Part shown: positions 14,078-20,110 of the stretch, one piece after another | Position numbering within the stretch: the stretch's first letter is position 1 | Layout of the letters: the number at the start of each line of letters is the position of its first letter | Assembly: GCA_902783035.1 (NCBI GenBank) | Contig: CACZPK010000136.1 | Location: 1 to 38,046 of the forward strand | Source of the DNA: Oscillospiraceae bacterium | GTDB lineage: Bacteria > Bacillota > Clostridia > Oscillospirales > Oscillospiraceae | DNA length: 38,046 nucleotides | Direction of reading: 5' to 3' | Made by a program: the position numbers and the translations under genes | Notes under the pieces: model-generated | What the model saw: the letters and a program-made list of their open reading frames with translations, nothing else | Databases searched by the model: none | Told to the model about the DNA's origin: nothing

Positions 14078-14091
14078 TCAAGGAGGTGCGT

Positions 14092-14625
14092 ATGGACATT
14101 GGCAACAAGATCAGGCAGTTGCGCATGCAAAAGGGGCTGACGCTGGAGGAACTGGCAAGCCGCAGCGAGTTGACAAAGGGCTTCCTCTCCCAACTTGAGC
14201 GCAACCTCACCTCCCCTTCCATTGACTCGCTGGACGACATTCTGGAGGCGCTCGGCACCAACCTTGCAGAATTCTTTCAGGAAGACAAGGTCGAGCAGAT
14301 CGTTTTCCGGGAGGCAGACTTTTTTGTCGACGAGCGCGATGACTGCACGGTGCATTGGATCGTTCCAAACACGCAAAAAAATCGCATGGAGCCGATATTG
14401 CTTACCTTGCCGGAAGGCGGACGTTCTTTTGAGGTCGCTCCGCACAGCGGCGAGGAATTCGGGTACGTCGTGGGCGGCGAGGCGGTACTCTCTTACGACG
14501 GCAAGCGGCAAACGCTGCAAAAGGGAGAAACCTTCTACCTCCACGGCCGAACGTTCCACACGCTGCAAAACGAATGCAAGGCCCCGGCACGCATTCTGTG
14601 GGTGTCTACGCCCCCGCTGTTTTGA
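14092..14625 (+). CDS. XRE-family HTH / cupin transcriptional regulator (PuuR-like)
   Basis: The 177-residue product has an N-terminal helix-turn-helix (about residues 3-60: IRQLRMQKGLTLEELASRS, TKGFLSQLERNLTSPS) and a C-terminal cupin barrel (about 105-175) with HSGEEFGYVVGGEA and GETFYLHGRTFHTLQN. Regulators of this shape often sense a small molecule and control polyamine or amino acid genes. It comes directly before potA with 42 bases between, so polyamine-responsive control of the pot operon is the best guess. AGGAGG five bases before ATG 14092 decides the start. GTTTA/TAAAC repeats around its promoter are candidate binding sites. Confidence 0.9.
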   Translation: MDIGNKIRQLRMQKGLTLEELASRSELTKGFLSQLERNLTSPSIDSLDDILEALGTNLAEFFQEDKVEQIVFREADFFVDERDDCTVHWIVPNTQKNRMEPILLTLPEGGRSFEVAPHSGEEFGYVVGGEAVLSYDGKRQTLQKGETFYLHGRTFHTLQNECKAPARILWVSTPPLF

Positions 14626-14667: not shown

Positions 14668-16257
14668 ATGGCAGAAGAAGCAAAGAAACTCATTCAGTTC
14701 AAAAACATCGTCAAGAGCTTTGAGGACGGTCAGGTTGTGCTCAAGGGCGTGTCGCTGGATATTTATGAAAACGAATTCGTCACGCTGTTGGGGCCGTCCG
14801 GCTGCGGCAAAACAACGCTGCTTCGTATTCTCGGCGGCTTTTTGCAGCCCACGGAGGGCAAGGTGCTCTTTGACGGCGAAGATATCGTAAACGTCCCTCC
14901 TTACAAACGCGAGATCAATACCGTGTTTCAGAAATACGCGCTGTTCCCGCACATGAACGTCTATGACAACATCGCATTCGGTCTGACGATCAAGAAGGAG
15001 CCGAAGGACGTCATCGAGCAGAAGGTCATGCGTATGCTGCGTCTTGTCAATCTGGAGGATTACGCACGGCGAAACGTCACAGAGATGTCCGGCGGCCAGC
15101 AGCAGCGCATCGCTATTGCCCGTGCGCTTGTGAATGAGCCGAGCGTACTGCTGCTCGACGAGCCGTTAGGCGCACTGGATCTCAAGCTGCGCAAGGAGAT
15201 GCAGCACGAGCTCAAATCCATCCAGCAAGAGGTCGGCATCACCTTTATTTTCGTCACGCACGATCAGGAAGAGGCACTGACCATGTCCGACAAGATCGTT
15301 GTCATGAATGCGGGCGAGATCCAGCAGATCGGCACGCCGACCGAGATCTACCGTCGTCCGGTAAACGAATTCGTGGCAAACTTTATCGGTGAGACCAACA
15401 TCATCGACGGCGTGATGGTGGAGGACGACCTTGTGGTGTTTGAAGACAAGCGTTTCCCCTGTTCCGCCCGCGGTTTCGACAAAAATGAGAAGGTGGACGT
15501 TGTCATCCGTCCGGAACATCTGGACATCGTGCCGCGTGGCCAGGGTATGCTCAAGGGCGTGGTCAAATCGCAGCTCTTCAAGGGCATGCATTACGACACG
15601 GTGGTCGAAACCCGTGCAGGCACGTCCATCACGGTTAAGATGCAGGTGGCGGCAGACAAGCCCGTAACCAACGACGAAGCAGGCGAAAAGATCAGTGCCA
15701 GTGGTTTTCTGCTGGACGTGGAGGACGCTGCGGAGCTGAGCGACGCGAAGGTCATCGCCCTCGCCTCGGCGGAGGCATGGGTATCCGAAACGGAGGAAAA
15801 CGTCTCTATCAACGTCGAGCACGACATCAAGCCGGAAACGGGTGAATACAGCGTTACCTTCTCTACGGCTGCCGGTACATCCATTACCGTACGCGCGCTC
15901 GTCGTAACGGAAAACCGCGTTGAGAGTACGGTATATCAGGAAGAAATCTACGCAATGAACTTCTTTAAGAAGGTCGAAGACATTCAGGAGAGCATCGCGC
16001 TGGACACCGACCTGAAAATGTGGGCAACCGCGTCGGCCTGGAGTCTGGAGGACGAGAACGAAAAGGTGGAGATCACCGACGTACGCTATGATTTTGACCC
16101 TGAGACCATTACGCCCGGCGTCTACGACGTGACCTTCTCCACCGAAGGTTATGAATACAAAGTCTCCACCACCCGTGCAGCCGAAGAGGGTTCCGAGGTC
16201 GGTTTGATCTTTCGCCCCGAGGACATCCATGTGATGAAGAAAGGAGCCAAACGGTGA
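14668..16257 (+). CDS. potA: Spermidine/putrescine ABC transporter ATPase PotA with inserted beta-rich repeats
   Basis: The 529-residue product is much longer than the usual 350-380. Residues 1-240 form a complete ATPase: Walker A GPSGCGKT (42-49), Q-loop Gln88, signature MSGGQ (140-144), Walker B LLLDEP (161-166) and switch His198. A TOBE domain begins with [11 protein letters not shown] (about 278-288) and resumes only at [12 protein letters not shown] (512-523). Between about 330 and 507 lies an extra segment with two similar copies (about 360-412 and 446-503), sharing an A-S-A-x-x-W block, an acidic stretch, a D(I/F)-x-P-E-T block and Y-(S/D)-V-T-F-S-T, which look like Ig-like beta repeats. 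AAGGAG precedes the ATG. Its stop overlaps potB. It powers polyamine uptake. Confidence 0.94.
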
Positions 16258-17090
16258 AACAGTTCCGCTCCATGACTTACCCATATGTTGCGTGGATCTC
16301 GGTGATGATCGTGGTGCCGATGCTGCTCATCGTGCTTTATGCCTTCACCGAGTCCGGCAACGACGTGCTGACGTTCCGCTTCACGCTGGACAACTTTGCC
16401 CGTTTTGTCACAGACCGCGTGTTCCTTGCAGTGCTTTGGCGCTCACTGTGCATTGCCCTCATCACGACCGTGATCTGCGTGCTGCTGGGTTACCCCATTG
16501 CCTATGTCATCGCACAGCTTCCCGGACGCGGCAATACGATCATGATCCTGCTCATCACAATGCCGACATGGGTAAACATGCTGGTGCGCACCTATGCGTG
16601 GATGGGCATTTTGCAGGACGAAGGCGTGCTCAACGGTCTGCTCAGTGTGTTTGGGATCGGTCCCGTACCGATGATCCACACCAGTTTTGCCGTCATCCTC
16701 GGCATGGTGTATAACTTCATTCCCTTCATGATCCTGCAGATTCACACCTCCCTCGACAAGATGGATAAGAATCTGCTCAATGCCGCCGCCGACCTCGGCG
16801 CAGACGGACTGCACACATTCCTGCGTGTCACGCTCCCGCTCTCCCTGCCCGGCGTCATCTCCGGCATTACGCTGGTATTCCTGCCTGCCGTGTCCAGCTT
16901 CTTCATTCCGAAGCTGCTCGGCGGCGGACAGTACGTTCTCGTCGGCAACGTGATCGAATCGCAGTTCCTCACCTCCGGCGACTGGAACTTTGGCAGCGCA
17001 ATCTCTCTGATCATGGCAGTCATCATCATGCTTTCAATGTACCTCACGCGAAAGGCAGATGTCTCCGTCGCCTCTGCAGGAAAGGAGTGA
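16254..17090 (+). CDS. potB: Spermidine/putrescine ABC transporter permease PotB
   Basis: The 278-residue product is an integral membrane permease with six likely membrane segments and the cytoplasmic EAA loop ([28 protein letters not shown] shortened here to its core AAADLGADG near residue 178), which docks on PotA. The [14 protein letters not shown] block is typical of PotB. The GTG start at 16254 overlaps the potA stop and has GAAAGGAG upstream; no alternative fits. It is paired with the PotC half of the following gene to make the heterodimeric channel. Confidence 0.95.
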
Positions 17091-17096
17091 TGCGCC

Positions 17097-19016
17097 GTGA
17101 ATGAAGCAAAAAGGAGCGGCGTCGGCTCCAAGATCATTCTGATCCTGACGCTGGCATTTTTCTACCTGCCCATTCTCTATATCGTCATATTCTCTTTTAA
17201 CGACTCGCGCTCACTGACAAAGTTCGGCGGGTTCTCCCTTCGCTGGTACGAAAAAATGTTCGCGGACTCGACCATGATGGAGGCGGTAGGTTACACCGTT
17301 GCCATTGCCCTGCTGGCAACCGTAATCTCCACCATCGTCGGCACGGTCACCGCCATCGGGCTTACCAAGTCCCGCCGCATACTCACGGCGTTCGTCGAGC
17401 GCGTAAACGATCTGCCTGTGATGAACCCGGACATCGTCACCGCCATCAGTCTGCTGATGTTCTTCAGCGTGCTGGCGGTACGCAAGGGCTTCCTCACGAT
17501 GCTTTTGGCGCACATCATGTTCTGCGTCCCCTATGTCATGCTCTCCGTGACGCCGAAGCTCCGTTCGCTCGATCCAAACCTCATTGAGGCGGCAATGGAT
17601 CTCGGGGCAACGCCCATGCAGGCGCTCACCCGCGTCATTGTACCGCAGATCCGTCCGGGCATTGTCTCCGGTGCGCTGATTGCGTTCACAATGAGTTTCG
17701 ACGACTTTGTGATCTCCTATTTTGCCACCGGCAACGGCGTGAACAACATTTCCATTCTCGTCTACACGATGTCAAAACGCGTTAATCCCTCGATCAACGC
17801 GTTGTCCACCATCGTTATCCTGCTCATCACGCTGGCGCTTGGCATCGTCAATCTGGTTCCCATCCTGCGTGAAAAGAGCGGCGCACCGTCCGGCGCGGAG
17901 CGCGGAGTTCTCAAGCGCCGCCGTCTTGTGTTGGCGTCGGTGGCCGGCATCCTGACACTCGCCATCGTCGTTGGCGTTGCCTCCGGCAGCGGCTCGGTAC
18001 GCCGCCGGCAGCAGGCCGCAATCGAAAAGTACGGCTCCGCGGTGCTGAAGCTCTATCTTCCTGGTGAATACCTGGGTGAAAACGTGATTTCAAACTTTGA
18101 AAAAGAGTTCGGTGTCAGCGTCATTGTCGAGAATTTTGACTCCAACGAAATGATGTATACAAAACTTCAGGCAGGCGACGCCTACGATGTGCTCGTTCCT
18201 TCGGACTACATGATCGAACGTCTGATTGCCGGCAACTATCTCCAGCCCATTGACCATTCGTTGGTGCCAAACCTCAACAATCTGGCGGATGCGGTCGTCG
18301 GTCTCGACTACGATGTGGACGGCAAGTGGTCTGTACCCTACTTCTGGGGCAGCGTCGGGTTGGTCTACAATCACGAAAACGTTGACCCCGCCGTCATCAA
18401 GGAAAAGGGCTGGGATATCCTGCACGACACCGACTATGCCGGACGCGTCTATGTCTACGATTCCGAGCGCGATTCGTTCATGATGGCGTTCAAGGCACTG
18501 GGCTACTCGATGAACACCGACGATCCGGCACAGATCGAAGCGGCGTACGAGTGGCTGCGGCAGATGAACAATACCATGTCGCCCATCTATGTCACCGACG
18601 AGGTCATCGACTCCATGATCAATGGATACCAGGACATCGCGGTGGTCTACAGCGGCGATGCGACGGTCATACTCGACGAAAATGAGGACATGAGCTTCCT
18701 CATGCCGGATGAGGGCACAAATATCTGGTGCGACGCGATGGTCATTCCCAAAAATGCAGAGAATCCAAAGCTCGCCCACGAGTTCATCAACTATATGCTC
18801 ACCTACGAGGCAGCGTTCGACAACTCCGAAACCGTGGGTTATGCCTCCCCCAACGCCGAGGTGCTGGAGGAGATGAGCACGCAGGAGGATCTGTATGCTG
18901 AGAATGAGGCATACCTCCCCCGCAGTGGTTATGAGCGCGATGAGATGTTCCATGACAACGTCACGCTTCAGCGTGAGCTGAGCAAATACTGGATCCGCGT
19001 CAAGGCGGAGAGCTGA
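17097..19016 (+). CDS. PotC permease - PotD substrate-binding protein fusion
   Basis: The 639-residue product joins two transporter parts. Residues 1-260 are a PotC permease (DLPVMNPDIVTAISLL, and the EAA loop LIEAAMDLGATPMQALTRV). A basic linker (KRRR) leads to an extra membrane segment at about 277-297, and residues about 305-639 form a PotD-like binding protein (LKLYLPGEYLGENVI, DVLVPSDYMIERL, VPYFWGSVGLVYN, GYASPNAEVLEEM). The binding protein therefore stays tethered outside instead of being a lipoprotein. The start is a GTG, six bases after the potB stop, preceded by GGAGTG. Similar fusions occur in other Firmicutes. A strong terminator follows, so this is the last gene of the operon. 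Confidence 0.93.
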   Translation: MNEAKRSGVGSKIILILTLAFFYLPILYIVIFSFNDSRSLTKFGGFSLRWYEKMFADSTMMEAVGYTVAIALLATVISTIVGTVTAIGLTKSRRILTAFVERVNDLPVMNPDIVTAISLLMFFSVLAVRKGFLTMLLAHIMFCVPYVMLSVTPKLRSLDPNLIEAAMDLGATPMQALTRVIVPQIRPGIVSGALIAFTMSFDDFVISYFATGNGVNNISILVYTMSKRVNPSINALSTIVILLITLALGIVNLVPILREKSGAPSGAERGVLKRRRLVLASVAGILTLAIVVGVASGSGSVRRRQQAAIEKYGSAVLKLYLPGEYLGENVISNFEKEFGVSVIVENFDSNEMMYTKLQAGDAYDVLVPSDYMIERLIAGNYLQPIDHSLVPNLNNLADAVVGLDYDVDGKWSVPYFWGSVGLVYNHENVDPAVIKEKGWDILHDTDYAGRVYVYDSERDSFMMAFKALGYSMNTDDPAQIEAAYEWLRQMNNTMSPIYVTDEVIDSMINGYQDIAVVYSGDATVILDENEDMSFLMPDEGTNIWCDAMVIPKNAENPKLAHEFINYMLTYEAAFDNSETVGYASPNAEVLEEMSTQEDLYAENEAYLPRSGYERDEMFHDNVTLQRELSKYWIRVKAES

Positions 19017-19105: not shown

Positions 19106-20110
19106 TCAGAACATCACTTCGGGGGCAAGGAGCAGCTGGTTGATGTATTCCGCACGCATCAGCGTCTCTGACGAGAGCACCTGCTTGGTCGCCTCGATCT
19201 CCTTTTCGGTCTCCGCCAGCGTACGGCACGCCTTGAGATAATCCACCGTCAGCTTGCGCAGGCGGCTGGACAGATGCTGGAGCACCATCATTGCCATCGC
19301 CGGGTTTTTGAGAAACAGTTCGCCGAGATCCTTTTCATAGATCAGCTCCACAAAGGTATCGTCTTCCAGCGCGACCGCCGTGGCAGTACGTTGCCGCCCC
19401 TCAAAAATTCCCATCTCGCCGAAGAACATCTCCGGCGTCAGCTGGGTGAGCAGTTTCTGTTTTTCTGTGCCGTAGTTCGTAAAAATACCGACTCTGCCGT
19501 CATGGATGTAGTACATGCAGTCAGAACGGTCGCCCTCGCGGAAGACCACATCCAGCTCGTCATACGCCTCGCCATGCATCGCCAGTTCACGTTTGCAGTA
19601 TAGCGGCGCAGTATGCGGTTCCGCAAGCTCCTCCCGTGTAGGACGTCCCATGAGGTAGACGCGTGCGAACTTCCGGATGCGCGCCATCAATCCCTCGTTC
19701 ACGTGATCCTGCGTGGTATCCAGACGCCCCAGCTCGCGCAGCGTATCGCAAACCTCAGTGTAGTGGACCGTGAGGCTGCGCAGGCGGCGGCTCAGCTGGC
19801 GGACAATGCTGTTGATCTCACCCACATGTTCCGAAAGATAACCGCTGAGGTCGGAAGCGTCGATCTCGGCAATACGCGTGTCATCCTCCGCCGCAACGAT
19901 TGTCGCAGAACGGTAGGTGATCTCGATGACTGCCATCTCTCCGAAATAATCGCCCTCGCCCAATTCTGCCAGCAGGTTTTCCTCCTCCGTACCGTACTTC
20001 GCATAAACCGCGACGCGGCCGGCAAGCACCCGGTAAATGCTGTTTCCGTAGTCTCCCTCGCGGAAAACAATATCGCCGCGTTTGCAAATCATCTCACTGC
20101 TCGTACCCAT
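19106..20110 (-). CDS. Tandem cyclic-nucleotide-binding domain protein
   Basis: The 334-residue product has two CRP-type cyclic-nucleotide-binding domains, about residues 5-115 and 180-290. Each keeps the phosphate-binding cassette: YFGEMAVIEITYRSATIVA in the first and FFGEMGIFEGRQRTATAVA in the second, with the Gly-Glu pair and the Arg-Ser/Thr-Ala needed for nucleotide phosphate. Each domain is followed by a helical RLRSLTVHY- or RLRKLTVDY-type segment. There is no helix-turn-helix and no kinase, channel or nuclease domain, so it is not a CRP-type transcription factor. Function is unknown; a protein-protein regulatory role responding to a nucleotide is plausible. It has its own promoter, and AGGAGG precedes the ATG. 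Confidence 0.85.
   Translation of the reverse strand: MGTSSEMICKRGDIVFREGDYGNSIYRVLAGRVAVYAKYGTEEENLLAELGEGDYFGEMAVIEITYRSATIVAAEDDTRIAEIDASDLSGYLSEHVGEINSIVRQLSRRLRSLTVHYTEVCDTLRELGRLDTTQDHVNEGLMARIRKFARVYLMGRPTREELAEPHTAPLYCKRELAMHGEAYDELDVVFREGDRSDCMYYIHDGRVGIFTNYGTEKQKLLTQLTPEMFFGEMGIFEGRQRTATAVALEDDTFVELIYEKDLGELFLKNPAMAMMVLQHLSSRLRKLTVDYLKACRTLAETEKEIEATKQVLSSETLMRAEYINQLLLAPEVMF

Follow-up and report, generated by a model that had tools for sequence, protein, structure and literature searches.

A predicted pair of Ig-like domains nested in the split TOBE domain of a clostridial polyamine importer ATPase, PotA

The pot operon and its ATPase

The window analyzed here is a 38,046-nucleotide stretch of an Oscillospiraceae genome (contig CACZPK010000136.1). 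Within it, potA lies between a gene for an HTH-cupin protein on one side and the permease and binding-protein genes on the other (Table 1), and the pot operon of the window holds no extra gene. The encoded protein scores 392.7 bits against the NCBIfam model TIGR01187 potA, above the cut-off of 355.6, which bears out the sequence-only reading of a complete ATPase. Against two equivalog models it falls slightly below the cut-off for NF043075 (540.5 versus 550) and below that for NF006987 (428 versus 482). The operon context by which PotA is recognized, two permeases and a solute-binding protein, is present in the window and also around some other carriers of the insert described below. On the family model and the operon together, we identify the protein as PotA, the putative ATPase of a polyamine importer.

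Table 1. Genes and protein features at the pot locus, in window coordinates
Feature	Position	Strand	Residues	Basis or remark
HTH-cupin protein, probable operon regulator	14086..14625	+		upstream of potA
potA, ABC ATPase of polyamine importer, insert-bearing	14668..16257	+	529 aa	open frame
Nucleotide-binding domain (NBD)	14740..15168	+	25-167	Pfam ABC_tran
TOBE, first part	15499..15615	+	278-316	last hairpin strand HYDTVVETR; Pfam, short-PotA alignment, model
Hybrid hairpin: TOBE strand, then strand matching Ig1 end	15592..15648	+	309-327	partial third repeat
Insert	15616..16146	+	317-493 (177 aa)	alignment with short PotAs; length constancy
Ig-like domain 1 (Ig1)	15685..15906	+	340-413	faster evolving
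Ig-like domain 2 (Ig2)	15940..16146	+	425-493	strongly constrained; D448, W452 near-invariant
TOBE, second part	16147..16236	+	494-523	starts GYEYKVSTT; Pfam, NCBIfam, alignment
PotB-type permease	16254..17090	+		BPD_transp_1; name from operon order
PotC-type permease fused to PotD-type solute-binding domain	17097..19016	+		BPD_transp_1 and SBP_bac_8; names from operon order

The second permease and the solute-binding protein of the window form a single polypeptide. According to crude motif labels applied to a few other loci, of which L048 was unreadable in this way, PotC and PotD are also fused in L051 and L061 and are separate in L083, L084, L094, L096, L115, and L118. We rejected a link between the insert and this fusion, as operons with insert-bearing (long) PotAs have both forms. 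Convergent with the pot operon, at 19109-20110 on the minus strand, lies a gene whose product has two cyclic-nucleotide-binding domains; at E ≤ 1e-5 Pfam gives nothing else for it.

An insert splits the TOBE domain

The Pfam domain TOBE_2 (PF08402) is present in the window PotA in non-contiguous form, cut by the insert: its positions 1-60 match residues 278-338, and positions 56-76 match residues 503-523 when the C-terminal part is searched alone (E 0.032, below cut-off). We aligned the protein with ten insert-less (short) PotAs from the same family and order (351-389 aa), which are 54-59% identical to it and have the TOBE hairpin and closing strands as in the window PotA, without the Ig pair. 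The window PotA parallels them up to residue 316 (HYDTVVETR versus, e.g., HYEIIVDVK) and again from residue 494 (GYEYKVSTT...; short counterpart GFKWMIQSTDYQEEGKKIGLVLQPDDIHIM), and residues 317-493 have no counterpart in any of the ten. As MAFFT placed the closing strands of the short rows against the start of the insert, the return point was set by eye; it is upheld by the match of the last 41 positions of NF043075 (301-341) to residues 485-525 (E 3.4e-5) and by short-PotA matches that reach residues ~484-526.

The interruption of the TOBE domain was thus correctly seen in the sequence-only reading, with positions (about 330, resuming at about 508) that were each ~14 residues late; its insertion of roughly 180 residues measures 177 in the alignment with short PotAs. 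An assembly or frame fault was rejected because 79 distinct PotA sequences contain the insert. No foreign base composition was seen, the GC content being 0.56 in the insert, 0.54 in the NBD, and 0.57 in the window.

Escherichia coli PotA, the ATPase of PotABCD (PDB 8y5f, 8zx1), shares the NBD and TOBE domain and, at 378 aa, lacks the insert. It is the best PDB match to the window protein both by sequence (8zx1, E 2.5e-92) and by fold of the whole-protein model (8y5f, E 3.8e-39).

The insert is a tandem duplication in register with the TOBE hairpin

The insert consists of two homologous domains of ~70 residues each. In the window PotA, 28 of 68 aligned columns of Ig1 and Ig2 are identical, their Smith-Waterman score is 88 compared with a maximum of 47 in 1000 shuffles, and their profile-profile alignment gives a probability of 98% (E 1.4e-13 for that single comparison). 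The duplication had been noticed from the letters alone, with copies (15745-15903 and 16003-16176) that were drawn too short (Table 1).

The full-length AlphaFold2 model has strands at residues 309-316 and 320-328, and when Ig1 was compared with this TOBE hairpin by hhalign, residues 309-327 matched the last 19 residues of Ig1 with 53% identity (E 3.7e-7). The same hairpin gave no match to Ig2 in the profile comparison. Hairpins start at residues 309, 394, and 486. The steps between them, 85 and 92, add up to 177, which is also the insert length; the insert thus spans two periods of the repeat, placed where the TOBE domain resembles the repeat. These spacings stay within 84-86 and 90-92 across an alignment of 98 rows (79 distinct sequences, with L075 and L095, cut by contig ends, left aside), and the insert is 176, 177, or 178 residues long in all 98. 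The likeness of the TOBE hairpin to the final hairpin of the Ig repeat, together with the two-period length, leads us to infer that the insert probably entered at the TOBE hairpin through an in-register join; alternatively, the likeness may have arisen by convergence after insertion.

Predicted fold of the insert

AlphaFold2 models, both computed as monomers, were obtained for the full-length protein (25 sequences; mean pLDDT 87.4) and for residues 317-505 (54 sequences; pLDDT 92.2, pTM 0.81). The latter folds into two beta-rich domains, and in the model both repeats have identical strand order and two short helices. The final strand of Ig1 (89-97 of the isolated model) has no equivalent in Ig2 within the isolated insert model; strand 320-328 could complete Ig2, whose own last strand lies outside the insert.

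A Foldseek search of the PDB with the insert returned nothing at E ≤ 0.001. Among the 50 matches listed, all those with a probability above 0.5 are Gram-positive surface domains: Big_3 (2kpn, 0.95), the ZmpB INT domain (7jrl, 0.98), domain II of the S-layer protein SlpX (7qfj/7qfk, 0.44-0.84), and Rib (6s5x_A, 0.75). The match is loose, with best E values of 0.05-0.13 and TM-scores of 0.25-0.32 on the query; Big_3, for instance, combines its high probability with an E of 0.056 for a confident beta-rich model. No Pfam match of the window insert to Big_3 and its kin reached the gathering cut-off, and Big_3 was listed in 3 of 20 members (best E 0.005), the window's own protein not being among them. 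Altogether, the insert is predicted to form two Ig-like domains, a kind of domain seen more often on cell surfaces. The earlier proposal that such a pair folds between strands of the TOBE domain is accordingly favored by the structure prediction, by the weak surface-domain neighbors, and by one homologue of Ig1 (see below). The new sensing or docking role suggested along with it stays conjectural.

An ordinary second TOBE/OB domain, which the model could have revealed instead, was rejected: only the 19-residue Ig1 hairpin matches TOBE, and none of the 50 PDB matches listed has an OB or TOBE protein title. Profile searches found no Pfam or NCBIfam domain at cut-off inside the insert and recovered the insert in other PotAs; the best E in PDB profile searches was only 0.15. 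Weak Pfam matches such as Phage_tube_C (17 residues, below cut-off) were judged to be chance. A fold search of viral proteins gave nothing at E ≤ 0.001, and its matches with a probability above 0.5 include two BIG2-titled and several unrelated proteins.

Search for surface-protein relatives

The Ig1 profile matched 5 of 398 genomes of the phylum: the window's own, two more with long PotAs, one with a 491-residue frame (G119; L197:7666-7914:-; E 9.1e-7), and one with a 128-residue frame. In the 491-residue protein an Ig-like domain precedes an LPXTG-like end, read by eye as LPKTG, a hydrophobic stretch, and basic residues; in Pfam this protein has only an XLF match below cut-off (E 0.089), and the anchor was not found there. 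Its Ig-like domain, with a charge of -6 over 83 residues, aligns with Ig1 (hhalign E 9.5e-7; 33 bits versus at most 11.7 in 500 shuffles) and has no match to Ig2. A reverse search from this domain hit 3 of the 398 genomes, namely its own, a long PotA (1e-4), and a chance-looking frame (3.4e-4). The reverse link to PotA is soft, since the chance-looking match stands so near that of PotA. An Ig1-homologous domain thus exists, by these profile matches, on a surface-type protein, a single case in 398 genomes and too few to name a donor.

Within the window's own genome the Ig1 profile finds PotA alone, and in 20 genomes including it only two weak non-PotA frames appeared (G043, E 0.30; G007:C24, E 0.43). 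The surface-domain search in plasmids gave no match. A further match (G254, L200) resembles a membrane-fusion protein and was judged to be chance. The 128-residue frame (L142 in G350) is a partial match to the Ig1 profile (E 8e-4).

Distribution and history of long PotAs

Carriers of the insert are a group of Clostridia, many from animal guts. A search of 60 genomes, among them the window's own, found the complete insert in 16 of 18 members of the genus and in 4 of the 42 others, a total of 20; a further 12 genomes match the closing TOBE strands only, and 28 show no match. In the two insert-less members of the genus (68% and 93% complete), a search for the PotA TOBE domain found none either. 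This domain was found in 46 of the 60 genomes, 26 of them without the insert. We fetched 25 of these 26 insert-less PotAs: 20 are short (351-389 aa), and 5 carry an appended second TOBE-like domain (467-480 aa). A scan of named genomes, in part the same as those 60, confirmed 93 relatives of the insert, of which 80 were kept; the records are labeled, among others, as Anaerotignum, Chakrabartyella, Clostridium sp. MD294 (ASF356), Hydrogenoanaerobacterium, and Oscillospiraceae (Oscillibacter being one of the latter), with some doubtful bin labels, e.g. Proteobacteria. In a spread sample of the class the insert occurs in 3 of 391 genomes, the window's own included; it is a minority trait.

Two trees were built, each with near-duplicates entered once and with L097, L010-L027, and L173 omitted (the long loci L139, L140, L145, L147, L189, and L190 were unused). 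Both were computed from the ~300 N-terminal residues, without the insert. The first (36 long, 20 short, and 5 double-TOBE PotAs) recovered a long clade with 100/100 support; the second, to which another carrier's relatives contributed 11 more short PotAs (33 long among 69 rows), did so with 100/99. In the larger tree, none of the 36 insert-less PotAs falls within the long clade, in a sample not designed to find losses. Of the 19 genomes from other genera of the window's family, 3 have a long PotA, 14 a short one, and 2 neither, yet in the trees long PotAs from this family are placed with the Anaerotignum ones, apart from the short PotAs of the family. With the tree unrooted, a single gain followed by transfer and an old split with losses would both fit. 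Anaerotignum neopropionicum has two long-PotA operons of the same layout on one contig (L083, L084), perhaps a recent duplication.

Based on the alignments, models, and trees, we consider it very probable that a tandem pair of Ig-like domains entered the turn of the TOBE hairpin in an ancestral PotA, that the NBD and TOBE domain were kept, and that the variant was passed on as a unit.

Constraint differs between the two domains

We estimated dN/dS from 16 same-genus sequences, with 107 to 120 usable pairs per region; as dS is high (0.6-0.8), the figures are approximate. The medians are 0.044 for residues 1-240 (NBD), 0.115 for 241-316 (first TOBE part), 0.25 for 329-414 (Ig1), 0.063 for 415-492 (Ig2), and 0.079 for 493-525. 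The constraint on Ig2 comes close to that on the ATPase, and Ig1 is under less; within Ig2, D448, W452, W458, Y474, and F476 are among the positions conserved in 98% of rows or more. By this pattern, Ig2 looks like the working half of the insert.

Near-neutral retention, with the insert kept merely as harmless to PotA, might account for the approximately five-fold faster protein change in Ig1 than in the NBD (median dN 0.160 versus 0.030), and short PotAs do manage without it. We nevertheless regard such a passenger as improbable: the length is held at 176-178 residues in 79 distinct sequences, the constraint on Ig2 is close to that on the NBD, and the long clade of the larger tree holds no insert-less PotA, within the limits of its sampling.

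The near-invariant residues and low dN/dS of Ig2 would also suit a docking module: a partner protein in the cytosol would bind to Ig2 and link the import of polyamines with metabolism, much as regulators act on the ATPases of other ABC importers. The Ig fold is common among binding scaffolds, and the binding of EIIAGlc to MalK is a precedent for a regulator docking on an importer ATPase. Against this, the window's pot operon contains no candidate partner gene, and we consider docking unlikely, less so than a passenger.

Acidity of the regulatory region

Residues 330-492 of the insert have a net charge of -18 to -28 (mean -22.7 over 98 rows), compared with about -7 for the TOBE core. Averaged over the whole regulatory part, the charge is -18.3 for the short PotAs (20 rows), -25.8 for the double-TOBE ones (5), and -29.9 for the long ones (98). 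Acidity is not unique to the insert: a 162-residue stretch of the PotC-PotD frame is just as acidic (-27), and among 47 long window frames, drawn from both strands and covering a subset of the genes, two others reach -20.

An acidic C-terminal tail (-6 to -13) is present in 16 of 20 short PotAs from relatives of the window's genome, while 97 of 98 long rows stop 3-7 residues beyond the closing strand, the exception (L097) having a neutral tail of 55 residues. The idea that the insert replaces the acidic tail of short PotAs is weak: among 11 additional short PotAs, taken from another carrier's relatives, only 3 show a tail at or below -6 (19 of 31 in total). Short PotAs from L148-L160 often end in an acidic tail of 31-46 residues with a shared KKSxYSGxFGDYSSYSxE-like motif, which could be a binding tail.

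Proposed role of the Ig pair

According to the 2024 structure paper on E. coli PotABC, spermidine lowers the ATPase activity; its authors propose the negatively charged regulatory domain as the binding site at which cytosolic polyamines lock the transporter (PMC11414716). By analogy, we tentatively propose as the most likely function that the Ig pair extends the regulatory region and tunes the feedback inhibition exerted by polyamines in the cytosol. Attached to the regulatory domain on the cytosolic side, it would act as an acidic arm that collects polyamines and, when these are plentiful, would hold PotA inhibited through the shared TOBE hairpin, a reinforced version of the trans-inhibition suggested for E. 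coli PotA (PMC11414716). Ig2 would provide the active surface, and Ig1 would serve mainly as a spacer or as added charge.

The emergence of the Ig pair from the regulatory domain, which rotates by 15 degrees between states of E. coli PotD-PotABC (PMC11414716), would also suit a bracing or dimer module that enlarges the contact of the two PotA regulatory domains with each other or with the NBDs and sets the resting geometry without a ligand. The near-constant length of 176-178 residues fits a fixed geometry, and 5 of the 25 fetched insert-less PotAs enlarge the same region by an appended second TOBE-like domain. The comparative looseness of Ig1 (dN/dS 0.25) speaks against bracing, which we hold to be possible and somewhat doubtful. 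Bracing and docking are close rivals that explain the same facts almost as well as regulation by polyamines.

A fuller version of the polyamine proposal joins history and function: a surface-type Ig pair would have been moved into the cytosol by the in-register join at the TOBE hairpin, and Ig2, completed by the strand at the opposite end of the insert and bearing the near-invariant D448 and W452, would bind polyamine and stop the ATPase via the shared hairpin. As a complete chain we rate this as quite unlikely, between docking and the passenger.

While PotA itself is already known, a PotA with a nested Ig-like pair is new; searches of the literature, mostly outside subscription papers, found no report of such an insert. 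The Big_3, ZmpB INT, SlpX, and Rib domains come from exported proteins, whereas the Ig pair of the window, predicted to be of their type, is nested in a cytosolic ATPase with traces of a possible entry route. How intracellular polyamines shut off polyamine import in E. coli is described in the 2024 paper as needing further study (PMC11414716). The insert is a large, separable, acidic module on the very regulatory domain implicated there (PMC11414716), so its deletion would give a direct test of polyamine feedback.

The five double-TOBE PotAs (467-480 aa; L162, L163, L167, L170, and L172), from the same order, represent another route to enlarging the regulatory region of PotA. That region is likewise enlarged and acidic in them (-21 to -32); their extra domain is TOBE-like and C-terminal, whereas the Ig pair of the window PotA is nested. 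Two TOBE matches per frame were found in L170, L172, and, outside the fetched set, G047, and the other three of the five double-TOBE PotAs were assigned by eye.
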